A stretch of 64,000 nt of DNA, taken from Deltaproteobacteria bacterium. Lineage in GTDB: Bacteria; Desulfobacterota; Desulfobacteria; Desulfobacterales; Desulfobacteraceae. Of this stretch, positions 1,161 through 59,573 are shown piece after piece (the stretch's first letter is position 1; each line of letters begins with the position of its first letter). The DNA is taken from the NCBI GenBank assembly GCA_013151635.1, contig JAADHV010000086.1, forward strand, positions 1 to 64,000. The letters are read 5' to 3'. The notes under the pieces are model-generated. The model saw only the letters and a program-made list of their open reading frames with translations, did not search any database and was not told the DNA's origin. Position numbers and translations under genes: made by a program.

Positions 1161-2308
1161 TTTTTTAATACCTTTTTTATAACGTTCACCACACGGCCGG
1201 CATCTTTGTGTGTCATATCCGGAAAAAGCGGCAGGGACAGGATTCTTTTGGAATTCCATTCCGTATTTATCAATGAGCCGGGGGCGATATTCAGATTGTT
1301 TTTATAGTATCGATGAAGATGGACCGCTTTAAAATGAAGTCCTGTCCCAATATTATTTTTCTTCAGGTCTTCCATGAACTGGTCCCTTGACATCCCGGCC
1401 TTGCCAATATCAAGTCTGACAACAAACAGATGCCATGAATGTTTTGCATCCTCTTCAGGAAGTTTAAGGGGGATAATTTCCTCAACCTCATTTAACAGCT
1501 CAAGATAATGCAGGGCAAGGGCTTCCCGTTTTTTGTTAAACGTATTGATCCGGCTTAACTGGGAAATACCAAGTGCCGCCAGAATATCCGGAAAATTATA
1601 TTTATAACCCGGTTCAAGGACCTCTGCCTGTGGCAGTCTCCCATGGCTGATCCTGTCGAAAGAATCCATGCCCAGGCCGTGGAATTTAAGTCTTTGTATT
1701 TTTTCAATAAGGGTATCATCATCTGAACACAGCATCCCTCCTTCCCCGGTGGTGATATTTTTTATGGGATGAAAGGAAAAAATACTGGTCCCCTGTGATC
1801 CTATTTTTATGTTTTTGTACTGGGTGCCGAGTGCGTGGGCAGCATCTTCCACAATGGCAATCTTATGTTTTTCAGCAATTTTCTGCAAAGAATCCATTTG
1901 AGCCGGAGCACCGGCAAAATGAACGGGAATGATCATCTTCACCTTTTCAGACAGGCATTTTTCCACGCTTTCCCTGTTCATCATGAGAGTATCTTTGTCA
2001 ATATCTGCAAACACAGGCGTTGCCCCTGCCATGGTAATAAGATTTACGGTTGATACCCATGTCATGGAAGGGGTAATGACCTCGTCACCCTGCCCAATAC
2101 CAAAAGCTTTTAATACAAGATGCATCCCGGCTGTTGCAGATGTAAGAGCCACCGCATTTGGGCTGTCGGTATAGTCACAAAATTTTTTTTCAAATTCAGC
2201 ACTTTTGGAGCCTGTGGTGATCCAGCCGGATCGCAAAACTTCATTCACGGCATGGATATCATCCGGGTTGATTGAAGGCTTTGAGAACGGTAAAAAAGTA
2301 TCACCCAT
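1157..2308 (-). CDS. arnB: ArnB-type UDP-Ara4O aminotransferase
   Basis: PLP-dependent DegT/DnrJ/EryC1-family aminotransferase, predicted to form UDP-4-amino-4-deoxy-L-arabinose. It opens with FLPFSKPSI and SGWITTG, as ArnB proteins do, has the substrate motif SATAGMH, and carries the PLP lysine in [14 protein letters not shown] (K183 from this start). The ATG at 2308 matches the family start. An in-frame ATG at 2359 has a better Shine-Dalgarno (AGGG, six bases ahead) but adds 17 residues that do not look like the family, so the start is uncertain. It is first in arnB-arnC-arnA and overlaps arnC by four bases, suggesting translational coupling. PglE/WecE-like sugar aminotransferases are the alternative family members. 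Confidence 0.87.
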
Positions 2309-2710
2309 GATTGATTCAGCCAAGGTGCGACCTTTTCCAGAACAATACACATTCATCATAAATAACCCTGGATTTGTTCATGTTTAAAGCAAGGACCGGT
2401 TCCAGGATAAATCCACTGGAAAATTTTCACATTGAAACCCGTTGCCATCATTCCTCCTCCCTTTTCTTCAGAGGTATTTTTGAAACGTGTGATGCTGTGT
2501 TCAGATGATGATACCTCTTATCTTGAAATGGTTTTTGGCACTCATTCCGGAAAGACTGTCAATGCCTTTCTAAAATCAAGATAACAGGCCACCATGAAGA
2601 TAGCATGAAGTTGGGGACCGTGTGCTGAATTTTTTTTCGTGGGCCGTCCTTGGCAAGTCAAAAAAAGATTAAGTCGCCGCCTGGACTTTGGGATTGATTA
2701 GAGATATGAA

Positions 2711-2770
2711 ATGAGAATATTAATTGTTGATGATGAGCAGACATTATTTGGATCAACTATAGACAATTGA
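2711..2770 (+). pseudogene. response-regulator receiver fragment
   Basis: Twenty codons from an ATG to TGA reading MRILIVDDEQTLFGSTIDN. The hydrophobic strand followed by VDDE is the beginning of a CheY-like receiver domain, but the reading stops before any further receiver motif. It abuts the IS4-like transposase remnant, so it is probably the 5' stump of a regulator cut by insertion and deletion. The match is short, hence moderate confidence. Confidence 0.5.
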
Positions 2771-3126
2771 CCTCACAGCATGCCGGATGGAGCATGCCAT
2801 GAACAAGCAAACCTTTAAAAAGTTCTCGCCCCTTTTTTTATCAATATCCTTGGACTCAATGACTGCATCCACTGTCATTTTATTAAGAGGATCAAACATC
2901 TGGGAAACTCTGGCCATGGGACATTCCCCTGCCTTGGATTCCAAGCCCCGAAATGCTCAGATATGGCCTCTATCCTGGGTAATTGAACTGTCGTTCCATC
3001 TATGGAGAGAGGATTAAATCCATTCCATTTTAAAGAAAGGAATTCTATCAGTCTGGTACATATGTTGAAAAGCAGGTTCTGTGCCAACCCTATAAGATTT
3101 GTTAATAAATTTATCTTTAAATTCAA
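2753..3126 (-). mobile_element. IS4-like transposase remnant, frameshifted and truncated
   Basis: Two overlapping minus-strand frames together give one decayed transposase. The first (3126 to about 2930) contains LSIDGTTVQLPRIEAISEHFG and NPRQGN. The second continues with PMARVSQMFDPLNKMTVDAV. This matches the DDE-core region of IS4-family transposases (ID-ST-KLP, then HFG, then ARVS-MFD). The N-terminus, the second half of the catalytic domain and the terminal inverted repeats are missing, so it cannot be active. It sits between the response-regulator fragment and the integrase-like fragment. Confidence 0.7.
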
Positions 3127-3403
3127 TAGGTTAATCTTATTTTATACTCTTAAGTTAATGACATTATGATATGCATAGATCTAATATTCAATACGCAGGA
3201 AGACTCAAAAGGTTCCCTTTGTTATATGTCAGCCCAACATTTCGGCATTGACTCTCTATAAAGCCTGTTCAATATCTGGCAACAGGGGGCAGAAATTGGG
3301 GTCACCCATTAACCCGCTCTCTTGACCAGGACGGCAGAGGGCACAGATTTATTTATAGGTCGTCCCGGCATATTGTCGGGACTATGGAACCTCAATAAGT
3401 GTT

Positions 3404-6086: not shown

Positions 6087-6989
6087 ATGCCTGGCACCAA
6101 GAAAAGATTGAGTCATCCTTTGTTGTCATATTTAATCGGATCATTTTTTATGGTGCTTTCGCTTATTATACTTATCGGCGTAATGTATCATATTTCCTTC
6201 TCCCGGAACGGACCTGAACTGCTCGGGGCTTTGGTTAAAAAATACGAGGCACAAACTAAATCTCCAATCATGGATGAAGCCCAGCGGCTTTTGGAAATGG
6301 AAAAACATAATCATTTCCATAATTTTCCTGTTGAATATCCCAAGCTCCCTGATAAGATGAAACCGGTCTGTTTTATATGCCACTCGGACTTTCCCCATAC
6401 TAAAAACAAACGTATCCGGTCTCTGATGAATATGCACACTCAATTTTTCGCATGCGAAACATGTCATATCAAGGAAAAGCCTAATCATAAAATTGTTTAT
6501 AAATGGTATAATCCCCTGGATAAGAATAGCAAAGGACCTTTTTTCGGAACTTCTTATGATCCGCAAACCGGAAGCCTTTTGGAAGGTGATGATCATATTG
6601 CTAAAATAACCCCTTTTTTCAGACGTGTTCCTGAAAATAAAAATAACCCGGGGTCTCAAAATCCGGACAATCTCTTATCAGTGATCCAGTTGCAGGATAC
6701 ACCATTTGCCAAAGATTATGTTAAAATCAGGAACAGGCTCAGCCCGGAAGAAAGAGAAGGCATTAAGAATAAATTTCATAAGAACATTAAACCCAAAGGA
6801 CATGATTGCAAGGACTGCCATACTAAAAACAGTATTCTGGATTTTAAGCGTTTAGGATTTTCCGAACATAGGATCAAATATTTGAAGACACTTGAAATTA
6901 TTGGGATGTTGTCACACTATGAGGATTTTTATCTGCCCAAACTGTTTCCTAATTCCAAATCGTCGGCTGATAACAAAAAAAAGCAGTAA
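6087..6989 (+). CDS. membrane-anchored trihaem cytochrome c
   Basis: A single N-terminal membrane helix (about residues 13-37) is followed by a periplasmic domain with three CxxCH sites: CFICH, CETCH and CKDCH. The second is flanked by HTQFFACETCH, which resembles the haem-binding helix of NapC/NirT-like quinol dehydrogenases, but the protein has fewer haems and a long central region without Cys. RBS AAGGAG lies ahead of the ATG. It completes the operon after octahaem cytochrome and cytochrome b, with a 56-base gap. I infer the exit or entry haem module of the complex; the electron acceptor is unknown. Confidence 0.78.
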   Translation: MPGTKKRLSHPLLSYLIGSFFMVLSLIILIGVMYHISFSRNGPELLGALVKKYEAQTKSPIMDEAQRLLEMEKHNHFHNFPVEYPKLPDKMKPVCFICHSDFPHTKNKRIRSLMNMHTQFFACETCHIKEKPNHKIVYKWYNPLDKNSKGPFFGTSYDPQTGSLLEGDDHIAKITPFFRRVPENKNNPGSQNPDNLLSVIQLQDTPFAKDYVKIRNRLSPEEREGIKNKFHKNIKPKGHDCKDCHTKNSILDFKRLGFSEHRIKYLKTLEIIGMLSHYEDFYLPKLFPNSKSSADNKKKQ

Positions 6990-7188
6990 AAAAATATTTA
7001 TATTATTTGAAAATCATTTTTCATCTATGCCTGTCTTCCGGGGTAAAGAAATGGATACTGCTATGCAAATGTTCTTTGTTATACTAATTAATAAAACGAT
7101 TGGCCCAAACCCCGCGGTTAGCTCAGAAAAGGAGATTATCTATGCTGGGAATCAAGATAGAACATTTGAAATCGGGCAGGTATTATAA

Positions 7189-7530
7189 CTAATGATGCTC
7201 AAAAATCACCTTCCCCAGCCGCCGGGCACCTTCAGCCAGTATCTTATCATCATAAAAAGCAAAGGAAAGGCGCATATAATTTTTTAATTCTTTTTTGTGG
7301 GAAAAAAGGCTGCCCGGATAAAAACCCACATTCTGTTTCCGGGCCGGCATGCAGCCATCCCAGTCTCAGCCCCGGTGCCAGAATTTTTGAAAAGGAACCC
7401 GGGGAGACCAGGGGGCAGCAGCTTTTTCCATTTCTTTTACAGGGAGCAAATGACTGCTCGGCTGCCCCAATCCCAGATGGATCATGTCCGGGGGAGGGTC
7501 AATCTGCGGAAGACCCCGGTTAAGTGTCAT
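7189..7530 (-). pseudogene. class I/II aminotransferase remnant with internal deletion
   Basis: From an ATG at 7530 the minus strand reads MTLNRGLPQIDPPPDMIHLG followed by LGQPSSHLLPV, the N-terminus of a PLP-dependent 2-aminoadipate/valine-pyruvate-type transaminase. It then jumps to the PLP-lysine region (GSFSKILAPGLRLGW in another frame) and to the C-terminal end (YMRLSFAFYDD, then EGARRLG), ending at TAG 7189. About 114 codons remain of the roughly 400 expected, with at least two frame changes. It overlaps the end of the M23 gene by 11 bases, so it was once the last gene of that operon. Confidence 0.75.
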
Positions 7531-8209
7531 GGCATACCCTGAACAGGGGCAAAGGCGACGGGCATATGGAATCCATTACTGAAAGATCCCTGGCAGCGCA
7601 ATATCCCTTGGAAAGATACCCCTGGTCAAGTCCTTTCCGGGTAATGACCTGGAGGTGGGTATGATAAAACCAGTTCCCGTTTTCATGAAAATCCCCGATA
7701 CAGGCAAAGGCCTCCCCGGCCATAAGTTTTGTACCAGTGGCAGGAAGCTTTGCTTTGTTTAAATGGCCGTAAAAACTGTAAAATGTTTCAAAATCCGGAC
7801 TTTCATGCATTAACAGCACGTGGGCACCGTAATTTCCCTGGCCCTGTTCATACCCGCTTTCCATGACCCTGGCAGGAAGCGGCGCATGCAAAGGGGTATC
7901 AAGGGGAACTATCACATCCAGGCCCAGATGGAAAAACCGCTTTTCTTCAACCATCTGGGGATACCGGGACAGGACAATTCCCCGGTTTTCAAGATAGGAG
8001 GCGACTCCCCACGTGTATTGATCTTTCATCAACTCGTCCAGAAACTTTTGGAATGCTTTTTGATCATGAATATCCACGGCATTAAAAATATTGGAGTGAA
8101 CTGACAGATCCACCACCAGGGGGTCCCCTGTCAAGTCCTTAAATACAGGTTGAATATCAACCTTGTTACTGTATGCAATATAAGGGTATTTCAACATTTT
8201 CAGCATCAC
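7520..8209 (-). CDS. M23 (LytM-type) metallopeptidase-like protein
   Basis: Resembles peptidoglycan endopeptidases of family M23: HLGLDV supplies the first zinc His and Asp, YGHL a further His, and HTHLQV the HxH pair, all in the expected order from about residue 90 to 185. There is no signal peptide or membrane segment, so it is either cytoplasmic or exported by another route, which is unusual for a cell-wall enzyme. It follows the aminomutase-like gene with one base between them, so co-expression is likely. The substrate in this setting is unknown; the fold alone does not prove wall hydrolysis. Confidence 0.65.
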   Translation of the reverse strand: MMLKMLKYPYIAYSNKVDIQPVFKDLTGDPLVVDLSVHSNIFNAVDIHDQKAFQKFLDELMKDQYTWGVASYLENRGIVLSRYPQMVEEKRFFHLGLDVIVPLDTPLHAPLPARVMESGYEQGQGNYGAHVLLMHESPDFETFYSFYGHLNKAKLPATGTKLMAGEAFACIGDFHENGNWFYHTHLQVITRKGLDQGYLSKGYCAARDLSVMDSICPSPLPLFRVCHDT

Positions 8210-46919: not shown

Positions 46920-49900
46920 CTATAAAATAGACTTGATCATATCCATAATTTGCGGAGTTTCAAAACCGTTCAGGTTGATTGCCCCTGACCGGCAGGATGC
47001 CACGCAGAGCCCGCATCCCTTGCACAATGTATGTTGGATTCGGGCTTTTTGGGTTTTAAGATCAAACATGGGGGCATAATAGGGGCAGATTGAAACGCAG
47101 ATACCGCACTGGCTGCAGAAGGCCGGATTGACATAGGCCACTGTCCCCTGCAATGAAACCGACTTCTGGGACAGTACAGTCACAGCCCTTGCTGCGGCAG
47201 CCTGGGCCTGGGCAATGGATTCTCCAACTGTCTTGGGACCGTGTGCAAGGCCGCATAAAAACATGCCGTCCGTGGCGAAATCATTGGGCCGCAGCTTTAC
47301 ATGGGCTTCTGTAAAAAAATTATCCTCATTTCGGGACACCTTGAAAAGTTTTGCCAGAGGGTTCCTTTCCGGGGCAATAACCGCAGCTGCAAGTACCAGG
47401 AGATCCGCTTTGATAACCATTTCCCGTCTAAGAACAATATCTGTGAATCCAAGTTTTATCCCTCCTGTGTCCCGGGTCACATCCAGGGGCTTGTCATAAT
47501 TGTACCGGATAAAATGAATTCCCATATCCCTGGCAGTTTTGTACAGGTCCTCCCGCATACCATAAGTCCGTATATCCCGGTACAGGATATAGATTTCCTT
47601 TTGCTCGTCCATCTGCTTCAATAAAACAGCATTTTTAATAGACTGTGTGCAGCAGACCTTGGAACAATAGGGATGTTGCTCATTTCGTGATCCCACGCAT
47701 TGAACAAAGGCAATGGTTTTGTAAGATTCAAAGTCTGATTTTTTATTAAATGCCTGTTCCAGCTCAAGACTGGTCATGACCCGGCTGGTTTGACCGTACA
47801 GGTATTCTCCGGGTTTGTATTGAGATGCACCAGAGGCAATAATTACCACTCCATGGTTAAGGATTCGTTTCTGGCCATTGGTGAGAATGGTGGTCTTAAA
47901 ATTGCCGATTGAGCCCTCCACTTCCAGGATTTCGGCATTCAACCAGAATAAAAGATGGGATTCATCGTTGATATCGTCCATGAGTTGGTCGATATAATCA
48001 TTGATGAACTCGCCTTTCCAGGTTTTGTAAAGCTTTTTGGTTTGCCCGCCAAGCTTGGCGGATTTTTCAATGACATAGGTCACATACCCCTGGCGGGACA
48101 GGTTTTTTGCCGCTTCCAATCCTGCAATGCCGCCGCCCACAACCAGAACCTGCTGGTTAACCGTCATTTCAGGTTCCACAAGGGGCTTGTACAGGGTGGC
48201 TTTTGCCGCAGCCATTTTTACCAGGTCTTTTGCCTTGGCTGTGGCTGAGCTCATATCAGACCTATGTACCCAGGAGCACTGGTTACGGATATTGGCCATC
48301 TCAAACAAGTATTTATTCAGCCCGGCTTTGGCAACGGTTTTCTGGAAAAGCGGTTCATGGGTTTTTGGAGTACACGCTGACACAACCACACGGTTGAGCT
48401 TTTGCTCCCGGATAATCCTGGTTATTTCATCCTGGGTGTCCTGAGAACAGGAAAACATATTCTGCTGGGCAAAAACCACATAGGGTAAAGTTTTTGCATA
48501 CTCCACCACAGCAGGCACATCCACGTAGGCTGCGATATTGGTTCCGCAGCAGCAGACAAAAACACCTATTCTGGGCGGTTCCCCTCTGATATCTCTCTGG
48601 GGGACAACTTCAAGGGTTTTGGTGTCCGTCCACCTTGATTCTGTCAGCAGGCTGCCCACCATCCCGGAGGCTGCACTGGCATCAATAACAGCCGTGGGAA
48701 TGGTTTTAGGGCTGTGAAAGGTGCCGCAGACATATACCCCGGACCTTGAGGTTTCCACAGGCAGAAAGCTTGTGGTCTTTGCAAAACCATAGCGGTTGAT
48801 ATCAACACCGAGAACACGGGCAAATGATCTTGATTTTTCAGGAATGGTCAAGCCCACGGACAAAACCACCATGTCAAACTCTTCTTCTATTCTTTGCCCG
48901 GAAGCGTCAATATAGCGAAGCAGATGGTTCCCTGATTTATTGAGGGGCTCAATGGCAGTAATCTTGGATTTGATAAACCTGACCTTAAGGTCTTTTCTGG
49001 CATAATTATAATACCGCTCAAGATCTTTTCCATAGGTTCGTATATCAATATAAAAAATGGCTGCGTCCAGGGTTCTAATGTGTTCTTTAGCTAAAATGGC
49101 CCCTTTTACGGAATTGGTGCAGCAGACCCCGGAACAATATCCGTGGGCTCCGATATGTTCGTCCCTGGACCCGATACACTGAAGCCATGCAATCTTTTTG
49201 GGTGCCTTTTTGTCAAGAGGCCGGACCAGGTGACCCTCAAAGGGCCCGGATGCAGACAATATTCTTTCAAACTCAAGGCTTGTGACGATATTTTTTGATT
49301 TTCCATATCCGTATGTATCCCATTTCCCAGGGTCATAGGCCTCACTTCCTATGGTCAGGATGACCGCACCCACACGCAGCAGGCTTTGGGTTGCCTTTTC
49401 TTCAAAATTTATCGCCCCTGTCGGGCAGATTTTTTCACAAAGTTTGCACCTTTTTTTCTTTATATAAATGCACTGGTCCGGATCAATACTGTATTTTAAG
49501 GGTACGGCCTGGGCATAATCAATATAAATGGCTTTACGCTTGCTCAATCCTTCATCATAGGCATTGGCCACTTTTTTCGGGCATTTTTCGGAACAAAGGC
49601 CGCAGGCAATACATTTTTCCTGGGATACCCTTCTTGGATGACGGGTAAGGGTGGCCGTGAAATCACCGGCCCTGCCGTCCAGCCGGATGACCTCTGACAA
49701 GGTGATAAGTTCAATATTAATGTTCCGGCCGACCTCGACCAGTTTGGGAGAAATAATTCACATGGCACAATCATTGGTAGGGAACGTTTTGTTCAGTTTG
49801 GACATCATGCCGCCGATGGAAGGAGAAGAATCCACAAGATACACATAAAATCCCGAGGTCGCAAGATCAATGGCTGCCTGCATTCCGCTGATTCCACCTC

Positions 49901-49967: not shown

Positions 49968-50846
49968 TTATGCCTCAGGTGATAAATACGATTCCAATGA
50001 TGTAATATCAATCTGATTGCGTTGAATTCCCAGGATGCTTGAGTCAATACCCAGGGTTAATCCCAGAAGCTGGGGATATAAAATTGCGCCCAGGGTTTGA
50101 AAATCATTGCTCTCCTTTGCCACTCTGGATTGAAAACTGTCAAACTGCAAGAATGAATAAGGACAGGCCACGGCAATAAAGTGGGCTCCGGCCTGCCTTG
50201 CATTGGACAGCTTTTTTTCCATGATGTTTTTTGATAATGCATCGTTAATACCCAGCAGGGGGGCTCCGCAGCATTCAGACTTTTTTGACCAGTTTACGCT
50301 TTTGGCACCGGTCAGATCCACCAGATCATCAAAAAGCGTGGGCAAAGCAGGGTTGTCAAACCTTGTGATACCGGCCGGGCGAAGGGCATGGCACCCAACA
50401 CTTGCTGCAATCTTAAGGTTTTTATATTTTATTTTTACATGGTCTTTCAGCTTTACAAGTCCCACATCCTCATGCAGCACAGACAAAAAATGCTTGATTC
50501 CTGCTAAACCCTTAAAAACCAGGTTCTCTTTTGCAAGCACAAGATTGACCTTTTCAAGGATAACAGGGTCCTCTTTTAAGCGGAACATAGCCATTTTCAA
50601 GCTGCCGTAACAGCATTTGCACAACACCATGAGATCCTCACCTCTCTGCTCGGAAAGCGCCAGGTTCCTTGCAGCAGACAGCAGAAAAACAAATTCATCA
50701 ATATTTCGCATGGGATAGCCGCAGCACATAAATTCCTTAATGGGTGTAAGGCCAATATCAAGTTCTTTACAGACAGCCAGTGCCGCATCCTGGTATTGTT
50801 GAACCCGTGCCGGGATATTGCATCCTAAAAAAAGTGTATAGTTCAT
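49968..50846 (-). CDS. hdrB: HdrB-like CCG-domain protein
   Basis: 292 residues with two CCG-type cysteine motifs: CGYPMRN preceded by FMCC, then CKCCYGS, and SVGCHAL then SECCGAPLLG. In methanogen HdrB these hold two non-cubane [4Fe-4S] clusters that reduce the heterodisulfide; sulfate reducers use similar subunits with unknown disulfide or thiol partners. It starts YTLFLGCNIPARVQQYQDAA, the family start. Its ATG overlaps the hdrC/cytochrome gene stop by four bases, and hdrA follows. Cytoplasmic, part of the Hdr complex. Confidence 0.88.
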   Translation of the reverse strand: MNYTLFLGCNIPARVQQYQDAALAVCKELDIGLTPIKEFMCCGYPMRNIDEFVFLLSAARNLALSEQRGEDLMVLCKCCYGSLKMAMFRLKEDPVILEKVNLVLAKENLVFKGLAGIKHFLSVLHEDVGLVKLKDHVKIKYKNLKIAASVGCHALRPAGITRFDNPALPTLFDDLVDLTGAKSVNWSKKSECCGAPLLGINDALSKNIMEKKLSNARQAGAHFIAVACPYSFLQFDSFQSRVAKESNDFQTLGAILYPQLLGLTLGIDSSILGIQRNQIDITSLESYLSPEA

Positions 50847-52576
50847 GCGTCGACATCCTGATTGTTTTGAAATGCATTGTTTTTTAATTGAAACAGAATA
50901 TCAGTAACCGTTACATTTTGCGGACAGTGTTCCTGGCACTGATAGCAGCTCAGACAGTTCCAGATCATGGCAGACCCTTTTGCCATGTCAACAAGGCCCA
51001 GTCCCAAGCTGTACATAATCTGATGCGGCAGCAGGGTAAGTGCTTCTTCAGGGCTCTGGAAATTTGCGACCACAGGGCATATGGTGGAACAGTTCTGGCA
51101 TCCGAAACAGTGTGAAAAGGTATCAACAGGGGGAAGATTAATGGTAAGCCCCGGCCCTTTTGTCCGGTCGTCTATTTTCAGCGGCCCGGTTTTTTTAAAA
51201 ACCGGTAGGGCTTTTTCAAATGCTGCAGCCAAAGGCCTGTCATAGGTTTCGATATCCATGGGATTTAGTCCGCGGGCAAAAGAAAATGTCGAAAGAATAA
51301 AAGGTTCTGCCGGGTCCTTTTGGATAAGATTTTCCCTTACACTGAGCCACAATGATTTTAAATTGATCCCGGAAGGGCAGACCACGGTACACCGGTCACA
51401 ATTGGTGCAGAGGTAAACCCCCTGGAAAAGTGCCTTAAATTCGTTTGAACCTAATTGATCTTTTAAGGCTGCCTTTTTAAGGGCCTGTATCTTTTCCGAG
51501 GGCAGGATATAGTTATTTTTAACAGATTCGTACATCATTCCTGCAGAACAATTCAAATTACATGTGCTGCAATGGGTGCAGGCATCCAGTTCCATAACCT
51601 GCTTTGTCAACAGGTTTCCAGCTTTCAGGTTGTCCTTGTTTTGAACGGCATTGGCCATAAGACTGATGGGGGTGGCAATAATATGAAACATCTTGGTGAA
51701 TGGCAAAAGTGCCAGGGCCGCAAAGCAGGCCAGGATATGGACATAATAAAAAAAGGTGACATAGTGGCTTTTATCCATAAAAACAGCAGCCGGTGATATG
51801 AGCTTTGCCGCGGCATATCCCATAAAAGCTGATTTGTTCGAGCTGTGACAATCCATGCAGTTTGCTTCATGTGTTTTAAGGCCCAGCTCCAGAACGTCTT
51901 TGTTAAAGGGTGCAGTCACACGGGGCGTGACAAGGGCGAATTCTTTAACCCAGTAAGTTTCAAGGGCCAGGGTTTCTTTGTCTCCATAATCCAGGTCTGT
52001 ATACTCCTCAACCATGGAGGTAAACTTGGAGACAGAAGCCATTTTCATGCCTTCCAGCAATGCCCCGGACAGAATAATAATTAAAAGGATCATGATGGCA
52101 AAAAGATCGGCTCGGGAATTTTTCAGCCTTGCCTGGTTTATAAAATATCTTCTGTACACAGCAATACCAAGGCCTGCCAGCACCATCAACCCGAACAGGT
52201 CCCTTAGGAAAAAAAACGGATTAAGGGTGGAGTAATAATAGGAAAACAGATTTTCAGTAAACACCTTGTCAAAAGCATGCATGAAGAGCAGTGCTGAAAA
52301 TCCCGAAAAAATAAGAAAATGCATGGTCCAGCGGAGTATACTGGTCTTTAAGATACGTCCCTGGAAAAGAACATCAAGGAAAAATGACCGGACCATGTAA
52401 AAGATATTAAAACTGAACATGGTTGAGGCCAAACCCTTGACCATGTCTGAAAAACGATGGGGAAAAAAGGAATGCTTGTGATATCCGACGGATTTTTTTG
52501 TCCAGATGAACACTTTACAGCCTATCCCGATGGTACAGATGGAAAGGGAAAAATAAAAAAGAGTATCAAAAATCAT
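50843..52576 (-). CDS. NarI-like cytochrome b fused to c-haem site and HdrC-like domains
   Basis: 577 residues. About five membrane helices in residues 1-295 resemble NarI/HdrE cytochromes b. A large loop before the last helix contains HEANCMDCHSS, a CxxCH haem-c site (C240-H244), so that loop should be periplasmic. The soluble C-terminal half has four C-x2-C-x2-C-x3-C groups: CTHCSTCNLNC, CTNCDRCTVVCP, CFGCQNCSTICP and CLSCYQCQEHCP, so up to four [4Fe-4S] clusters where HdrC has two. It would link the quinone pool, or periplasmic cytochromes, to HdrB and HdrA. The ATG at 52576 is chosen over 52606 because it begins the first helix. First gene of the operon. Confidence 0.85.
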   Translation of the reverse strand: MIFDTLFYFSLSICTIGIGCKVFIWTKKSVGYHKHSFFPHRFSDMVKGLASTMFSFNIFYMVRSFFLDVLFQGRILKTSILRWTMHFLIFSGFSALLFMHAFDKVFTENLFSYYYSTLNPFFFLRDLFGLMVLAGLGIAVYRRYFINQARLKNSRADLFAIMILLIIILSGALLEGMKMASVSKFTSMVEEYTDLDYGDKETLALETYWVKEFALVTPRVTAPFNKDVLELGLKTHEANCMDCHSSNKSAFMGYAAAKLISPAAVFMDKSHYVTFFYYVHILACFAALALLPFTKMFHIIATPISLMANAVQNKDNLKAGNLLTKQVMELDACTHCSTCNLNCSAGMMYESVKNNYILPSEKIQALKKAALKDQLGSNEFKALFQGVYLCTNCDRCTVVCPSGINLKSLWLSVRENLIQKDPAEPFILSTFSFARGLNPMDIETYDRPLAAAFEKALPVFKKTGPLKIDDRTKGPGLTINLPPVDTFSHCFGCQNCSTICPVVANFQSPEEALTLLPHQIMYSLGLGLVDMAKGSAMIWNCLSCYQCQEHCPQNVTVTDILFQLKNNAFQNNQDVDA

Positions 52577-53072
52577 AAAACAGCCCCGGTACATAAATAA
52601 AATCAAGTAATCTAAAAAAACTAATTCCTTATAAAGATCAGGCCTTTTGTTTAGGATGAGTTACAAGTCAAGCCGGAAGCCATATGCTGATTTCAATTCA
52701 ATTTTTGAACAGTTATAAGCGCTTGAATTAAATGCTGATCCCCATTAAGGGAATCTTTAACACAAAATACTGAAAGGTGAAAGGTGAAATTTATTTTTTC
52801 GTCCGAAAGTACATGATGAAAAGATAAATTCTTGCTTATATACTCAAAACCTTATATAAACTCTACCATATTTATATGAAAGCCTTTGCAATCCAAATCA
52901 GGACTTTCATGTTTTGTTGTGGGCAAACTCTGGTGAAATACCAAGTCTGCCTGTGGCAGTTAGTATAGTTTACCAATCTCCTGCTCCTGCTGTGCCGTTT
53001 TTTTTGACAGGTATGAATCTTCTGCTTAAATTTTTTAATGCATTAAAATTCTTCAAAAAAAGAGGGGGCTGC
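52577..53072. other. divergent region between Hdr operon and FrhB-like gene
   Basis: 496 bases. For the plus strand there is TTGCTT (52832-52837), 17 bases, TATAAA (52855-52860), a likely promoter with a leader of about 200 bases. In the leader ATGAAAG (52876-52882) pairs with CTTTCAT (52904-52910), followed by GTTTTGTT, a weak attenuator-like hairpin. A direct repeat AAAGGTGAAAGGTGAAA lies near 52780. I see no clear promoter for the Hdr side and no gene; the frame that continues upstream of the FrhB-like start has no homology. Confidence 0.45.
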
Positions 53073-54179
53073 ATGAAGACTTTTTTAAATCTCATTCAGG
53101 AAATCCAGGACCAGGGCCGGTGCAACCTGTGCGGCGGGTGTGTAACATTCTGTTCTGCCATAAATTATGAAGCGCTTGCCATAGACAGTGACGGGTGGCC
53201 GTATTTCAAAGAGATTGATAAATGCATTGAATGCGGCCTGTGTTACAGTATCTGCTCCCAGACCGGGGAACTTGATAATGAAATCAAGGAAAGTGTCCAG
53301 TGGAAAGAACCCTTTGGAAAAGTTATGGAAGTCTCTGTGGCCCGGGCAAAAGATAAAAATATGAGAAGCAGGGGTGCTGACGGCGGAGTTGTTTCATCCA
53401 TCCTGGTCCATCTGTTTGATACCCGGAGAATTGACGGGGCAATTGTTTCAAAAAATACTCTGGGTGGCAGGGTTTCCTTTCTTGCAAAATCAAGGGAGGA
53501 TATCCTGGCTTCAACAGGGATACATTTAAAAAAATCCCATGGTATGGTAGATTTTGCCCGTGAATATTCGACCTTTTCTCCATCAGCCAGTGAACTTAAA
53601 GAGCTGAAAAAGCATTCCCTTGAAAGGGTCGCTTTTGTGGGCGTGCCCTGCCAGGTAAACACCATTAGAAAAATGCAGTCCCTTGGTCTTGTGCCTTCGG
53701 ATATCATCCACTACTGCTTCGGTGTTTTCTGCTCAGGTAATTATTATTTCACCGAAAGCTTTTTAAGGGGGCTTGAGGCAAAATACCGGTTCAGGTATGA
53801 AGAGATTGAGAGAATAAATGTAAAGGATGATTTTATAATTTCCCTGTCCACAGGTGAACACCTGTTGATCCCCCTTTATGAACTGGAGAAAGTCAGACGT
53901 CTTGCCTGTAATTTCTGTGATGATTTTTCAGCAGGGTATGCAGATATTTCATTTGGGGGGACAGGTGCCCAATCCGGATGGATCACTGCCATCACAAGGA
54001 CGGATAATGGAAGATCTGTTTTCAGGGATGCCCTGGAAAACAGACTTGAAACATTCAGGTTTAAAGACAACCCCAAATACATTACCATGGCAGAAGAAAA
54101 AATTGAGTTAATGGCTGAATTTAAAAAGAAAAAAGCAGATCAGAGCAAAAAAGCCTTGAAAAGTATGGCATCAGGGTGA
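53073..54179 (+). CDS. FrhB/FdhB-family (coenzyme F420 hydrogenase/dehydrogenase beta-like) protein
   Basis: 368 residues. N-terminal ferredoxin part with CNLCGGCVTFC and CIECGLCYSIC (two [4Fe-4S] clusters), then the FrhB domain: SRGADGGVVSSIL (about 100), the VGVPCQVNTIRKM motif (about 190) and late Cys in ACNFCDDFSAGYADISFGG. Family members are flavoproteins passing electrons between F420, NAD(P)H, or ferredoxin and Fe-S partners; in bacteria without F420 they act with Hdr- or formate dehydrogenase-type complexes. The ATG at 53073 has AGAGGGGG ahead; the 53 preceding in-frame codons are unlikely to be coding. It faces away from the Hdr operon and may exchange electrons with it. Confidence 0.87.
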   Translation: MKTFLNLIQEIQDQGRCNLCGGCVTFCSAINYEALAIDSDGWPYFKEIDKCIECGLCYSICSQTGELDNEIKESVQWKEPFGKVMEVSVARAKDKNMRSRGADGGVVSSILVHLFDTRRIDGAIVSKNTLGGRVSFLAKSREDILASTGIHLKKSHGMVDFAREYSTFSPSASELKELKKHSLERVAFVGVPCQVNTIRKMQSLGLVPSDIIHYCFGVFCSGNYYFTESFLRGLEAKYRFRYEEIERINVKDDFIISLSTGEHLLIPLYELEKVRRLACNFCDDFSAGYADISFGGTGAQSGWITAITRTDNGRSVFRDALENRLETFRFKDNPKYITMAEEKIELMAEFKKKKADQSKKALKSMASG

Positions 54180-54216: not shown

Positions 54217-55416
54217 TCATAAATGGATTGAATTTGGCAGGCTTGTTTTTATTTTTTTTGGATCCATCTCCTGGTAAAGCGTGATTGAAAAACAGGTCCC
54301 TTCTCCAGGCGTGGAATCCACATAAATTTTTCCCCCGTGTTCCTGGATGATTCCATATACAACAGAAAGTCCCAGGCCTACACCCTTGCCTTTTTTCTTT
54401 GTAGTGAAAAACGGTTCGAAAATTTTTGATACGATTTCTTTTGGGATGCCGGCCCCGGTATCTTTAACTTGCAGGCCAATGGCTTTCTGATCTTTTTTGC
54501 TGAATGTTTTAATGGTCAGGCGCTTTGTTCTGGAGCTTGACATGCTTTCCACGGCATTGGAAACAAGATTCATGATCACCTGCTTTAACTGGTCTCCGGA
54601 TCCCATGACCAAAGGCAGGTTATGTTCAAGGTATTCTATGACACGGATGCTGTTTATTTTTAAGAGATTGGAATTCAGCATCAAGGTCTGTTCAATCAAC
54701 TCATTGATATCAAATTTGATCAGTTCAATTTTCGATTGACGTGCAAATACCAGAAGATTGCTGACAATACGACTGATTCTCCGTGTTTCAGTCTCCATCA
54801 GTTCCAGGTATTGTGAAAAAAGATCAATCGTTTTCTGGTCTATGGCATCTTCTTTTAATATCCGCTTGCTGAGCATCACAAGATTTAATATGCCGGCAAC
54901 GGGGTTGTTGATTTCATGTACAACTGATGAGGATAATTTGCCCAGAGATGCCATTTTATCCTGGTGAAGAAGCCTTTCATGGGTTTCTTTTAACTGGCGG
55001 GTTCTTTCTTCCACCATTTTGACAAGATAGTCTTCGTCCAGTTTGCGCTGGGTAATATCCCGGCTGATTTCAATAAATTTGGAAATCTTTCCTTTTTTTT
55101 CCCAGATGGGGAATATGGTCAGCTCTGTGTACCGGGGTTTATCATTGCTGTCCAGCCTTGTCAGCTCAACCTGGCAATGCCTTTTATTTTTAATGGCCTC
55201 TTCAAGTGGGCAAATGCTGTGACAATTGCTGGGTTCTCTTTTATCCTCCTTTAGCACTTCAAAACATTTGCGGCCGATGACATCCTTTCTGGAACATCCC
55301 ATATGCTTTAAAAAAGCTGCGTTTGTCTCTATAATCTCCTTTTCCGGGGATATGATTAATACAAAATCCTTGATACCACTGAGAATGGTTTGTATCTCTT
55401 TTTCAGGCAGCTTCAC
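54217..55416 (-). CDS. PAS histidine kinase
   Basis: 399 residues, soluble. PAS domain at about 10-120 with a Cys-containing loop (CFEVLKEDKREPSNCHSIC), a PAC segment (TELTIFPIWEKKG), a coiled coil, HisKA with the phosphoacceptor in SSVVHEINNPVAGI (about residue 165), and HATPase motifs NLVSNAVESM, DTGAGIPKEI and GVGLGLSVV. No receiver attached. It is divergent from the GcvH-like pair and probably signals to the NtrC-type regulator at 58224, which has a matching receiver and no other kinase nearby. Convergent with the FrhB-like gene, 37 bases apart. Confidence 0.87.
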   Translation of the reverse strand: MKLPEKEIQTILSGIKDFVLIISPEKEIIETNAAFLKHMGCSRKDVIGRKCFEVLKEDKREPSNCHSICPLEEAIKNKRHCQVELTRLDSNDKPRYTELTIFPIWEKKGKISKFIEISRDITQRKLDEDYLVKMVEERTRQLKETHERLLHQDKMASLGKLSSSVVHEINNPVAGILNLVMLSKRILKEDAIDQKTIDLFSQYLELMETETRRISRIVSNLLVFARQSKIELIKFDINELIEQTLMLNSNLLKINSIRVIEYLEHNLPLVMGSGDQLKQVIMNLVSNAVESMSSSRTKRLTIKTFSKKDQKAIGLQVKDTGAGIPKEIVSKIFEPFFTTKKKGKGVGLGLSVVYGIIQEHGGKIYVDSTPGEGTCFSITLYQEMDPKKIKTSLPNSIHL

Positions 55417-55591
55417 AATTACATCCCCTAAAAAGTTTTATAAGCAATCGGAAATATTATTAATTTTTAACATAGTATGAATCACGAATGCAAGGTTCTT
55501 ATGGAAAATAAAGTGTTGGAATAATAGAATGACCTGCCGGAAAATCCAACAGCACTGAATATGTGTGCCAATAAAGACATTCTGTGATTTG

Positions 55592-55603: not shown

Positions 55604-55732
55604 GCCCCGGGTACTGTGGTAAACTCCTGCAATTTGAAATTCCGGGCATGTATTGCACAGGCCCTGGCAGTATATCTCAAATCCCGCACCCTACAGGGGG
55701 TCTCAATATTAAGTTTGTCTTTTTTCCCGGAC

Positions 55733-55748
55733 TGGTATCCTTTTTGCT
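55733..55748 (+). promoter_or_regulatory. sigma-54-like (-24/-12) promoter of the GcvH-like pair
   Basis: TGGTAT, five bases, TTGCT: one base off the RpoN consensus (C to T after GG), with GG and GC ten bases apart. It lies 54 bases before the first gene. An NtrC-type activator is encoded 2.5 kb away in the same block. Confidence 0.6.
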
Positions 55749-55801: not shown

Positions 55802-56707
55802 ATGAGACAATTAATGAGAACCGTAAAATCCGAAAATATCTGGAAAGCTAAAAAAGACAAAACCGATCATCCCTGCATATGGATGCAGGCAGGTGTTGCA
55901 AAGAAAAAAAACTGCAACAACTTTTATGACTGCACCAATTGCAAGTATGACGATTCCATGGATAAAATGGCAAAAGCCGGCAAACATATCTCATGGCAGG
56001 ATGCCTTGAGAAACAGGGACAGCAGGGACAGAACATGCAGACATGCATTGACCAACAGGACCGAACACCGGACCTGCCCTATGAACTACAACTGCCGGCA
56101 CTGTGAGTTTGATCAATGTTTTGAAGACACCATTTCACCTAAAACCGGCCATTCCATGGTATATATGAAAGATGTCAAAGGCTTTAACATAGCTGACGGA
56201 TACTATTTTCACAGCGGCCACACATGGGCCAGCATTGACAGCGGCGGTCTTATCCGTATCGGGCTTGATGATTTTTCATTCAAGGTACTGGGCGGCCCGG
56301 ATGCCTTTGATCTGCCCTTGACCGGCCAGGAACTGAATAAAGACAAGGTGGGCTGGGGTTTGAAAAGAAAAGAAAACCTGGCCGATATTCTCTCTCCTGT
56401 AAACGGGGTAATCACCGAGGTCAACCACAATATCAGAAAGTCATCGGATATTGCAAAAAACGACCCTTATGGTGACGGATGGCTTTTTACCATTCACAAC
56501 CCGGACATAAAAGGAACTGTTCAAGATCTCATGGCTGACAATGACAGTGAAGAATGGCTGGGACAGGAAGTGGCCACACTTGAAAATATGATTGAAAAAG
56601 TTACCGGCCCCTTAAGTGCCGACGGAGGCCTGTTAAAGACGGATGTATATGGAAACCTGCCCACCCTTGGCTGGCACAACCTGACCCGCACCTTTCTCAG
56701 GACTTAA
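55802..56707 (+). CDS. Cys-rich GcvH-like protein without lipoyl lysine (first paralogue)
   Basis: 301 residues, two parts. Residues 20-110 hold two copies of C-x12-C-x5-C-x2-C (C25, C38, C44, C47 and C79, C92, C98, C101), each ending CxxC-x(Y/F)D, likely metal or Fe-S sites; the first starts HPCIWMQAG. Residues about 130-270 resemble glycine-cleavage H protein: FHSGHTWASID, IRIGLDDFSFKVLG, SPVNGVITEVN, then DPYGDGWLF. In GcvH the lipoyl lysine lies in ESVKAASD-(Y)-SP; here the place reads KRKENLADILSPV with Glu at the lysine position, so lipoylation is unlikely. RBS AAGGAG. First gene after the -24/-12 promoter. No signal peptide; function unknown. Confidence 0.82.
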   Translation: MRQLMRTVKSENIWKAKKDKTDHPCIWMQAGVAKKKNCNNFYDCTNCKYDDSMDKMAKAGKHISWQDALRNRDSRDRTCRHALTNRTEHRTCPMNYNCRHCEFDQCFEDTISPKTGHSMVYMKDVKGFNIADGYYFHSGHTWASIDSGGLIRIGLDDFSFKVLGGPDAFDLPLTGQELNKDKVGWGLKRKENLADILSPVNGVITEVNHNIRKSSDIAKNDPYGDGWLFTIHNPDIKGTVQDLMADNDSEEWLGQEVATLENMIEKVTGPLSADGGLLKTDVYGNLPTLGWHNLTRTFLRT

Positions 56708-56749
56708 ACTTAAGTTCTGTGGTCACATTTTAAGATAAGGATGCAGCAA

Positions 56750-57667
56750 ATGGGAACAAAATTGCAAAAAAAAGCTCCTGCCTGTCTCTGGATGCAGGCA
56801 GGAGTGGTAAATAAAAAAATATGTCACAAAGATTTTGCCTGTACAACCTGCCGGTTTGACCGGGCTTTAAAAAAAGTTTGTCATGAAAACAAAGACCTGC
56901 AAAATCAGGACACGGCCCTGAAGGGGAAACGGGCTCGTCTTGTTTTCTGGAAGGAACGGCTTAAAAAACAGCCCCTGGCCAGAAGGCCGTGCATCCACCA
57001 CATGAAGGGCCATATCGATTTTAAAACCTGCTCCAAAGCCTATAATTGTGTTGATTGTGAATTTGACCAGTATTTCCATGACCAGTTCAGGGTATATACG
57101 ATCTTAAAGCCGGTAAAATTTAATGATATCAGCGGCGTTACCCTGCCTGTAGGATATTATCTTCATTCCGGACATACATGGGTGAAAATTGAGGATCGCA
57201 ACAATGTCCGTGTCGGTATTGACGACTTTGCTTCAAGGGTTCTTGGAAAATTTACCGCCATTAAAACCCCTTTAATGGGAAAACAGGTTTTCCAGGGAAA
57301 AGATGCCATGCATATATTCAGGAACGGGCATACAGCATCTTTTTTTTCACCTGTAAACGGTGTAATCACAGAAGTCAACTCCCGGTTAAGTCAAAATCCG
57401 GGCCTGATTAATCATGATCCGTACATAGACGGATGGGTATTAAGTCTTTATTGCCCGAACCTGAAACAAGACTTGAAAAAGCTTATGTTCATGGACTCAA
57501 GCAAATTGTTCATGAACAGGGAGGTGGACAGGCTGTATGATTTTTTAGAAGGCGAAACCCAGTTGATGGCTGCTGATGGAGGAAGGCTTGGATCTGATCT
57601 TTTCGGAAATCTGCCCGGTCTTTCCTGGGACAGGCTCAAAAAGCTCTTTATCCGCAAAGATCCCTGA
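56750..57667 (+). CDS. Cys-rich GcvH-like protein without lipoyl lysine (second paralogue)
   Basis: 305 residues, a diverged copy of the preceding gene with the same plan. The Cys repeats keep the spacing exactly (C12, C25, C31, C34 and C81, C94, C100, C103) and the first again contains CLWMQAGV. The H-protein part reads HSGHTWVKIEDRNNVRVGID, then FFSPVNGVITEVN and DPYIDGWVLSL. The lipoyl position is Gly (FRNGHTASFFSPV). The ATG at 56750 suits AAGG nine bases ahead; 56741 overlaps that site. It lies 42 bases after the first copy. Its last 20 bases overlap the end of the convergent archaemetzincin gene. Confidence 0.82.
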   Translation: MGTKLQKKAPACLWMQAGVVNKKICHKDFACTTCRFDRALKKVCHENKDLQNQDTALKGKRARLVFWKERLKKQPLARRPCIHHMKGHIDFKTCSKAYNCVDCEFDQYFHDQFRVYTILKPVKFNDISGVTLPVGYYLHSGHTWVKIEDRNNVRVGIDDFASRVLGKFTAIKTPLMGKQVFQGKDAMHIFRNGHTASFFSPVNGVITEVNSRLSQNPGLINHDPYIDGWVLSLYCPNLKQDLKKLMFMDSSKLFMNREVDRLYDFLEGETQLMAADGGRLGSDLFGNLPGLSWDRLKKLFIRKDP

Positions 57668-58196
57668 TATTATCGTTTAAAAAGATATTGCAGTACCGGC
57701 AAAACTGGCTTGATTTCCTGTCAACGTCATCAAGCCTTCTGCAATAGTACATAATGCACCTTTGATCTTCACAATGGCGAAGATCAAAGGTATGGCCGAG
57801 TTCATGGATGGCTTCCTTGACAATCCTCCTGCCCCCCTTGTTAATCATCTCGACTTCCAGGTCTGCAACCAATCTTGCTATGGATATGATGCAGGCTTTT
57901 CCCCCAAGCTGGGCCTCACCATAAACATGGGTAAGAATTGGAATAAAAAGGTCTTCCTTGGTCACTGCAATAATCTTGATACTGTCATCTGGTGCATTTT
58001 GCGCAAGTTTTTCAAGGATTTTAGTTGAATGATACTGGTTGCGCTCTAGATCATATGCAAACAGGATATCATCCAGAACCTTCTCTACCCTTGTGCTGAA
58101 TCCGAAAAACGACCCCACGTCCCTCGCTATGGTATCAGTTATCCAGGGTGGTATATCCCCAATCGGGGCAACAATAATGGTATCAGTGTTATTCAT
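57648..58196 (-). CDS. amzA: archaemetzincin-type zinc metalloprotease
   Basis: 182 residues. The signature HELGHTFDLRHC (H131, E132, H135, H141) is followed by C147-x-M149 and, 16 residues later, CRYC (C166, C169), matching the archaemetzincin zinc motif HExxHxxGxxHC-x4-CxM...CxxC. The first zinc is catalytic; the Cys bind a second. The usual Gly is Asp here (HTFDLRH). The single domain, N-terminal strand and lack of signal fit a cytosolic protease of unknown target. It is 27 bases after the NtrC-type gene in the same transcript and converges with the GcvH-like pair, overlapping it by 20 bases. Confidence 0.88.
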   Translation of the reverse strand: MNNTDTIIVAPIGDIPPWITDTIARDVGSFFGFSTRVEKVLDDILFAYDLERNQYHSTKILEKLAQNAPDDSIKIIAVTKEDLFIPILTHVYGEAQLGGKACIISIARLVADLEVEMINKGGRRIVKEAIHELGHTFDLRHCEDQRCIMYYCRRLDDVDRKSSQFCRYCNIFLNDNIRDLCG

Positions 58197-58223: not shown

Positions 58224-59573
58224 TCAGGTACGACTGTTTTTCAAGTCATATCGTTTGATCTTATTGTAGAGGGTTGATCTGTCAATGCCAAGGATGGCGG
58301 AACTCTTGGAAATATTCCAATTGGTCTGGTCTAAAATTTTGGAAATATGATGTTTTTCCACATCATTCAAAGAAAAATACTTTTTTTTCAATTCGTTTTC
58401 CAGTTCCTTTACAATGGGAAGATCCAATGGGGTTATGGTCCTGGTTTTGCAGACCACTACCGCTCTTTCAATGGCATTGGAAAGTTCCCTTACATTTCCC
58501 GGCCACTCATACAGCATGAGTTCATCCATGGCATCCCTGCTGATTCTTTCCACCCCCCTGTTGACTTCCTGGGTGGTCTTCATCAGAAAATGCTCAGCCA
58601 GCAGAGGGATATCCTCTTTGTGTTCCCGTAAAGGCGGCATGGTAAAAGTAATGACATTCAGGCGGTAATACAGATCTTCTCTAAATGTTCGATCCTTAAT
58701 GGCCTGCTCAATGTTTGCATTGGTTGCGGCAATCACCCTGAAATCGGCTGTAATGGGCTGGGTCCCGCCAACCTTGTAAAAAATTTTATCTTCCAGGACC
58801 TGGAGAAGATCAATCTGCATCCGCATACTGATTTCCCCGATTTCATCCAGGAATAATGTCCCTCCGCCAGCCAGCTCCAGGCGGCCTTTCCTGGTTTCCT
58901 TGGCATCTGTAAAGGCTCCTTTCTGATGACCGAAGAGTTCACTTTCCATGATATGCTTTGGAATAGCACCGCAATTCACACTGACAAACGGGCCGTTGGA
59001 AACCGGGCTGTTGGAGTGGATGGCCTTTGCGGCAAGACCTTTTCCTGTGCCGGTCTCTCCTGTGATAAGAACCGTGGTGTCCGTGTCTCTGATATCCTCA
59101 ATCAGGTTGAAAATTTCCTGCATGGGCCTGGACTGACCGATCATGCTTTCAAACCGGGCTCTTTGCTCGTACTCTTCTTTTAAAAACAGGTTCTCTTTTA
59201 TCCTGGCCCGGTGATCGATCAATTTTTGTATGAGCACCACAAGTTCATCCGGATCAAAGGGTTTTAAAAGATAATCAAAGGCATGGGATTTCATGGCCTG
59301 GACAGCGGAGGGAATGGAACCAAATGCCGTGATCATGATCACGTCAATATCAGGATAATGTTCCTTTACATGCGAAAGAACGTCCATTCCGCTGATACCG
59401 TCCATCTGAATGTCCAGCAGCAGGATGTCAAAACTATTGACTTTTAATATTTCAAGGGCGTCTTCACCGCTTGGCACGCTTTGTACATGATAACCGTCTC
59501 TTCTCAGCCAGCCGGCAAGAGATTCGCGAATAACCAATTCATCATCAACCACCAGAATCCTTGTCTGTTCCAT
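58224..59573 (-). CDS. NtrC-type sigma-54 response regulator
   Basis: 449 residues. Receiver domain (VVDDE at 8, phosphoacceptor in LLLDIQMDGISG at about 55, Lys in LLKPFDPDEL), AAA+ domain (Walker A GETGTGKG, Walker B GGTLFLDEIGE) and a Fis-type HTH at the C-terminus (NISKSSAILGIDRSTLYNKI). The sigma-54 contact loop reads GAFTDA instead of GAFTGA, a variant that other NtrC-like proteins also carry. It is the first gene of an operon with archaemetzincin. Likely target: the -24/-12 promoter at 55733; likely kinase: the gene at 54217. Confidence 0.9.
   Translation of the reverse strand: MEQTRILVVDDELVIRESLAGWLRRDGYHVQSVPSGEDALEILKVNSFDILLLDIQMDGISGMDVLSHVKEHYPDIDVIMITAFGSIPSAVQAMKSHAFDYLLKPFDPDELVVLIQKLIDHRARIKENLFLKEEYEQRARFESMIGQSRPMQEIFNLIEDIRDTDTTVLITGETGTGKGLAAKAIHSNSPVSNGPFVSVNCGAIPKHIMESELFGHQKGAFTDAKETRKGRLELAGGGTLFLDEIGEISMRMQIDLLQVLEDKIFYKVGGTQPITADFRVIAATNANIEQAIKDRTFREDLYYRLNVITFTMPPLREHKEDIPLLAEHFLMKTTQEVNRGVERISRDAMDELMLYEWPGNVRELSNAIERAVVVCKTRTITPLDLPIVKELENELKKKYFSLNDVEKHHISKILDQTNWNISKSSAILGIDRSTLYNKIKRYDLKNSRT

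Follow-up and report, generated by a model that had tools for sequence, protein, structure and literature searches.

The tandem genes A and B, found in a 64,000-nucleotide stretch of DNA from a deltaproteobacterium of the Desulfobacteraceae (contig JAADHV010000086.1, positions 1 to 64,000; hereafter the window), raise the question of what two Cys-rich proteins resembling the H-protein of glycine cleavage (GcvH) do when neither carries the lipoyl lysine. An earlier note had described them as a new use of the H-protein fold under sigma-54 control, with four copies of one strict Cys spacing over two proteins, and had suggested a profile search with the Cys repeat alone, structure prediction and a neighbourhood survey as checks. 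Both open reading frames were found where the note had placed them, and all four modules have the spacing C-x12-C-x5-C-x2-C (12/5/2) exactly. The H domain said to follow each copy is present, though only once per protein, behind two modules. The features are collected in Table 1. The genome containing the window comprises 4.2 Mb in 136 contigs, and the closest named records matched by an A/B-type protein are from Desulfobacula and related Desulfobacterales.

Table 1 Features of the A-B locus and its surroundings in the window (positions on the forward strand numbering).
Feature	Position	Strand	Description
HdrA-like gene	46923..49700	-	6-9 kb upstream of A; possible functional neighbour only
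HdrB-like gene	49968..50846	-	possible functional neighbour only
Fe-S protein, nitrate-reductase-gamma-like membrane part	50843..52606	-	possible functional neighbour only
PAS histidine kinase	54217..55416	-	divergent from A
Palindrome 1	55535..55551	+	likely regulator-binding, degenerate in the window
Palindrome 2	55615..55631	+	likely regulator-binding, degenerate in the window
Sigma-54-type -24/-12 promoter TGGTATCCTTTTTGCT	55733..55748	+	upstream of A
Gene A	55802..56707	+	301 aa: two Cys modules, linker, H-protein-like domain, conserved tail
A Cys module 1	55874..55942	+	Cys25-38-44-47
A Cys module 2	56036..56104	+	Cys79-92-98-101
A H-protein domain (PF01597)	56204..56560	+	residues 135-253; VIA-align Z 18.4 to 1htp
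A codon at lipoyl-lysine position	56372..56374	+	Glu191
A C-terminal tail, conserved (DGG...W..L...F)	56621..56695	+	
Gene B	56741..57667	+	308 aa: two Cys modules, linker, H-protein-like domain, conserved tail
B Cys module 1	56783..56851	+	Cys15-28-34-37
B Cys module 2	56990..57058	+	Cys84-97-103-106
B H-protein domain (PF01597)	57164..57499	+	residues 142-253
B codon at lipoyl-lysine position	57326..57328	+	Gly196
B C-terminal tail, conserved (DGG...W..L...F)	57575..57649	+	
Archaemetzincin-family (M54) metalloprotease	57648..58196	-	convergent; overlaps B end by 20 bases; NF033823 151.3 bits (cut-off 145)
NtrC-type sigma-54 response regulator	58224..59573	-	GAFTDA loop

The H domain was recognised by Pfam in both proteins (PF01597, E 2.7e-16 for A and 1.6e-22 for B), and GCV_H was matched by all 44 aligned members. 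The AlphaFold models (mean pLDDT 81.5 for A and 84.9 for B) match H-protein structures: A superposes on the H-protein 1htp with an rmsd of 1.6 over 131 residues (VIA-align), and B matches the H-protein 1onl with an E value of 7.3e-12 (Foldseek). The linker between module 2 and the H domain has a pLDDT below 50 (residues 105-117 in A and 108-121 in B), and the structural matches listed, which are H-proteins, other biotinyl/lipoyl-type chains or unrelated chains, all lie outside the Cys region. The position of the lipoyl lysine, seven residues before the S of SPV, is occupied by Glu in A and by Gly in B, just as had been noted, and it is unconstrained among relatives, with Lys in 4 of 67 A proteins and 5 of 70 B proteins (the window's included). 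With TIGR00527 (cut-off 115.85) A and B score 60.0 and 72.9 bits, and with GcvH_rel_desulf (NF045810), a GcvH-related NCBIfam model of 167 positions with a cut-off of 150, they reach 26.3 and 24.2 bits. The comparison with GcvH (PF01597, TIGR00527) thus reveals a common fold and a recognisable sequence, whereas the absence of the lipoyl lysine, the N-terminal Cys modules, the C-terminal tail, the sub-cut-off NCBIfam scores and the location outside a gcv operon set A and B apart. A tree built from 61 H domains places its 14 A and its 14 B sequences in two distinct groups (support 100/95 and 98/91), which would fit a single, ancient A/B duplication before the pair spread.

Elsewhere, the same genome has an ordinary gcvT-gcvH-gcvP locus, in which the lipoyl motif is normal. 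Glycine decarboxylase (PF02347) was detected in just 21 of the 64 module-bearing genomes searched for it (out of 84 such genomes) and was not found in the other 43. A role in glycine cleavage was rejected on these counts, on the missing lysine and on the NCBIfam cut-offs, and the view that A and B are not glycine-cleavage carriers has therefore stood. A second possibility, that they regulate the glycine cleavage system or lipoate metabolism or act as a decoy in either, would agree with the retained H fold and with the separate gcv locus, but it is highly improbable given how few module genomes have glycine decarboxylase. As far as their sequences tell, A and B are proteins of a sulfate reducer that reuse the glycine-cleavage carrier, with its cofactor site lost and Cys modules added. 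LbpA, a lipoate-binding protein of sulfur oxidation, is likewise a GcvH-like protein outside glycine cleavage, has Hdr-like partners and is lipoylated. A and B resemble it in extending the use of GcvH-like proteins beyond glycine cleavage, and differ from it in having no lysine at the lipoyl position. One such protein, LbpA2, is named in PMC10052474. Within 251-3238 of locus L002 (G000:C63), a GcvH-like gene which keeps a lipoyl-type lysine (TIGR00527 117.8 bits, cut-off 115.85) is flanked on one side by an HdrD/TfrB-like Fe-S gene and on the other by a gene for a multihaem-like membrane protein; these genes possibly encode a lipoate-linked Hdr-type membrane complex.

Both Cys modules are exact in 148 of the 149 family-cluster proteins from 80 named loci and the window, the remaining protein having Arg in place of one Cys; this figure is partly ascertained, as one of the two locus-finding patterns includes part of the Cys motif. 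The whole-protein search over 291 class genomes is free of that motif bias, and the gene B that it matched has both modules exact in every one of its 30 best loci (30/30), of which the window is one. Both genes are present in 28 of these 30 (L023 ends at a contig edge and L030 shows one gene), and two modules were counted in 57 of the 58 proteins from the best loci that had at least one. The strict spacing is confined to the tandem pair; in distant lineages there are 1, 2 or 4 modules, and the spacing of the second one varies. Modules 1 and 2 are related to each other in profile comparison (for example A1 with A2, E 7.4e-7), weakly so after masking of the Cys residues. Proteins were sorted into A and B by the distance between modules, so the constancy of this distance within each group is partly by construction. 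Conservation across relatives rules out a chance Cys spacing, and alignments A2 and A3, which hold 69 of 75 and 66 of 71 locus proteins, each plus the window's protein, bear out the earlier suggestion that the Cys residues are kept while the rest of the sequence has diverged.

No Pfam model reaches its cut-off over the Cys module, and no NCBIfam model does so for A and B themselves; the two libraries cover only the H domain confidently, which agrees with the earlier remark that the domain combination was not recognised from any described system. Zinc-domain models run against the 44 aligned members gave matches at chance level, namely zf-CHY in 3 (best E 0.1) and the zinc-ribbon DUF1451 in 1 (E 0.99), and a PDB profile search with the Cys module returned two matches with E about 0.5, also at chance level. 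Each Cys4 module is a probable site for Zn or an Fe-S cluster, and metal binding by A and B, like their biochemical role, is inferred.

The regulation of the pair was examined from the DNA upstream of A. Ahead of A, 67 of 69 loci have a sigma-54 site with a score of 7 or more (of 8.7), compared with 2.8% of shuffles, the weights having been built by ourselves from the consensus and the cut-off of 7 chosen after the scores were seen; at a cut-off of 6, the figures are 68 of 69 loci and 17.5% of shuffles. The loci below the cut-off are L076 (6.4) and L128 (none), and the count skipped loci with fewer than 400 bases upstream or an atypical first protein. The matching sites uphold the sigma-54 control proposed before, and the promoter of the pair is well supported at sequence level. 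Further upstream lie 17-base palindromes of the form TGTnG...CnACA, which are conserved among the closest relatives. The strict palindrome occurs in 26 of 78 loci, four of which have two copies 80 to 110 bases apart (a count without shuffle control); in the window's own genome there are 14 sites against 9 for the reversed control, and hence no regulon is claimed.

Kinase, archaemetzincin and regulator clusters are found in 63, 62 and 62, respectively, of 81 loci (the 80 named ones plus the window), and these counts are lower bounds, as many loci stop at contig ends. L077, L099 and L109 remain among the 81 despite scoring as pairless, the longest-ORF filter having hidden their pair. In many loci the kinase, regulator and protease genes are convergent to A-B, while in the window, as in its nearer relatives, the kinase gene is divergent and lies upstream of A. 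The neighbourhood survey thus brought out a conserved archaemetzincin, regulator and kinase, together with a partial linkage to CODH/ACS, MetF and HdrA genes, all absent from the earlier note, and the gene system around A-B is well supported. The window regulator has receiver, sigma-54 AAA+ and Fis-type HTH domains, and its linkage to the pair suggests that it acts on the A-B promoter. For the sigma-54 contact loop, 60 of 65 regulator proteins have GAFTDA instead of GAFTGA, which the other 5 have.

This linkage also invites the reading that A and B are a sensor or anti-activator, which would register metal, redox state or oxygen by means of the Cys modules and act back on the kinase or the regulator. 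The kinase and regulator are linked to the module genes in distant lineages too, and two cysteines of the kinase PAS domain are kept in 62 and 59 of the 65 aligned kinases, as such a reading would suit. However, A and B appear as the output of the promoter and not upstream of it, and the sensor domains of the kinase vary between lineages, certain distant kinases carrying different ones, so that we judge a sensor to be unlikely. The kinase of the distant locus L149 (460-2046) has CxxCH-type motifs, possibly haem-binding, in its sensor part.

The protease passes the archaemetzincin (M54) model NF033823, and the zinc ligands, catalytic Glu and structural Cys residues within its motif (HExxHxxGxxHCx4CxM plus CxxC), though not the motif Gly, are all kept in the 62 pair-locus proteins (62/62). 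It differs from the known archaemetzincins in its linkage to kinase, regulator and Cys-H genes and in the replaced metzincin-motif Gly, which is mostly Asp, Asn or Lys in 60 of the 62 pair-locus proteases and is kept in many M54 proteins elsewhere. M54 and module are also associated at the level of genomes. The profile search with a single Cys module, carried out as had been suggested, matched 84 of 395 phylum genomes, and M54 is present in 74 of these 84 compared with 70 of the 311 others (p 1.2e-28, uncorrected for shared ancestry). Among 20 divergent-looking loci, 17 have one, two or four modules in the kept open reading frames (L147, L150 and L154 have none), and in these 17 the protease was found 13 times, the regulator 13 times and the kinase 12 times. 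Of 20 regions around M54 in module-less genomes, 16 show the M54 open reading frame by profile, and L178 alone adds an H-domain gene; its H-like protein (6679-7593), encoded beside the M54 gene, has a different Cys-rich N-terminus with two CPxx... modules. A four-module Cys-H protein of 465 aa is encoded in L146 (4365-5759), about 250 bases from an HdrA-like gene.

The genomes that contain the pair tend to contain CODH/ACS as well. In the whole-protein search, 222 of the 291 class genomes were matched at 1e-10 (ordinary GcvH included) and 138 below 1e-30, the threshold taken for presence, which may admit relatives without exact modules. Of these 138 class genomes, which have the pair or something closely related to it, 125 contain CODH/ACS, against 104 of the 153 others (p 1.8e-6, ancestry uncorrected). 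For the family of the window, the corresponding counts are 36 of 37 and 6 of 21 (ancestry uncorrected), and in one genus, the three species out of 15 that carry the pair are also the three with CODH/ACS. The phylum sample gives 75 of 84 module genomes against 192 of 311 without the module (p 4e-7, ancestry uncorrected). The link of the pair to the Wood-Ljungdahl pathway is correlative. In the flanking DNA of the 80 named loci (at most 10 kb on each side and often less), HdrA was seen at 23 loci and not at the other 57; 12 loci have a MetF-like gene, in 7 of them no more than 1 kb from the pair, and 68 show none, while a CODH gene was seen at L119 only. Many of the loci without HdrA or MetF are cut by contig ends. 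This count omits L038-L057, whose genomes are repeated in L058-L137, and L200-L203, which were fetched for CODH/ACS or as kin. The proximity of HdrA in 23 of 80 loci concerns a multi-copy gene and has no background control; 13 HdrA copies are given for D. toluolica in the accessible text of PMC5109826. The MetF-like proteins score under the curated cut-offs. In the window, the HdrA, HdrB and Fe-S/membrane fusion genes lie 3-9 kb upstream of A, and a gene for an F420-hydrogenase/dehydrogenase beta-like Fe-S protein (52914-54179) stands between the Hdr genes and the kinase.

Three further genomes have CODH/ACS and the module on one contig and were chosen because of that linkage. In L200 and L201, the kinase, regulator, protease and Cys-H genes come after AcsB, AcsC and AcsE and share their strand (the Cys-H gene being placed in L201 from a single-module profile match). 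L202 has a similar arrangement, and so does L203 from the same genus. Behind the Cys-H gene of L205 lie HdrA, a MetF-like gene and an ATPase gene; this ATPase, which has no NCBIfam hit, and its counterpart in L202 are what we take to be CooC-like. These two loci, which adjoin CODH/ACS genes, a MrpORP-like carrier gene and the CooC-like genes, could also point to a maturation factor, whose Cys modules would bring Zn, Ni or Fe-S to CODH/ACS, HdrA or MetF, with the linked M54 protein as maturation endopeptidase. The Cys4 modules themselves and the intact zinc and structural Cys residues of the protease would agree with this. On the other hand, the Pfam and NCBIfam searches of A, B and the members gave no metallochaperone or maturase homology, and genomes such as G351 have the system and no CODH/ACS match, which leaves a maturation role rather doubtful.

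A different set of partners was met in three distant loci, where the one-module protein is encoded after HmcB-like, HmcC-like and membrane-anchored H-like genes (L148, L149, L153). On this basis, the pair might work in the cytoplasm with an Hmc-like transmembrane redox complex, as its subunit or partner, yet the arrangement is absent from the other 14 of the 17 distant module loci and from the window, and we find such a function improbable. The H-like proteins of these operons (L148 3827-4510, L149 4623-5318 and L153 3782-4474) have a hydrophobic N-terminus and no lipoyl lysine. NrfD was rejected as a general partner, the neighbours of about 450 aa in L155-L157 looking like transporters by eye.

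The reading we prefer, at a probability of about 0.4, is that A and B form a regulated adaptor which helps in electron transfer or in assembly and serves the methyl branch of the Wood-Ljungdahl pathway together with the MetF-HdrA partner of that branch. It is favoured because of the Cys conservation, the variable lipoyl position and the H fold, because of the linked kinase, protease and regulator, the M54 co-occurrence and the sigma-54 site, and because of the CODH/ACS co-occurrence, the CODH/ACS genes upstream in L200 and L201 and the MetF-like and HdrA neighbours. The architecture, the loss of the lipoyl lysine, the Cys conservation, the gene linkage and the promoter site are established by sequence comparison. 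Against the adaptor stand the 104 class genomes with CODH/ACS and no pair, the module genomes that lack a CODH/ACS match (13 of 138 in the class, 9 of 84 in the phylum sample), and the HmcB/HmcC-like operon partners which L148, L149 and L153 have instead. Were the adaptor reading correct, the kinase would sense a redox, metal or metabolite cue and phosphorylate the NtrC-type regulator, which would bind the palindromes upstream of A and drive A-B from the sigma-54 promoter. Zn or Fe-S would then be held by the Cys4 modules, the H fold together with the tail would dock onto a C1 or electron-transfer (Hdr-type) enzyme, and the co-inherited archaemetzincin would probably process or remove A/B or a partner. 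A more specific form, in which A and B are a pair dedicated to the acetyl-CoA pathway that would connect MetF-HdrA with CODH/ACS as an adaptor with several Fe-S or Zn centres, be induced through sigma-54 and be removed or matured by its own archaemetzincin, seems to us rather unlikely.

The accessible text of the respective sources offers two points of comparison. In acetogens, GcvH-like proteins are encoded near methylene-THF reductase genes, and a lipoyl H-protein was weighed, and disfavoured, as electron donor of that enzyme (PMC8760232). Both these proteins and A/B are of H type and close to MetF-type genes; the acetogen protein is a lipoyl carrier, whereas A and B are lipoate-free and have Cys modules. 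In sulfate reducers, HdrABC adjoins metF (PMC10553843), and the main text of that article, as far as accessible, makes no mention of GcvH, glycine cleavage or a metalloprotease. No description of the A/B pair was recognised among the full-text literature matches listed, a scope from which subscription papers mostly fall. The H fold, archaemetzincins and NtrC-type systems are already known, and within the literature searched it is their combination with the Cys module that is new.

The electron carriers for methylene-THF reduction in the acetyl-CoA pathway are debated, and a conserved, regulated, lipoate-free Cys4 H-protein, correlated with CODH/ACS and at some of the loci located beside MetF-like and HdrA genes, is a concrete candidate. 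On the sequence evidence, A and B are good candidates for a new helper of anaerobic carbon metabolism. If this holds true, the bacterial archaemetzincin would gain a defined setting, and the H-protein fold would be seen to persist after the loss of its cofactor site.
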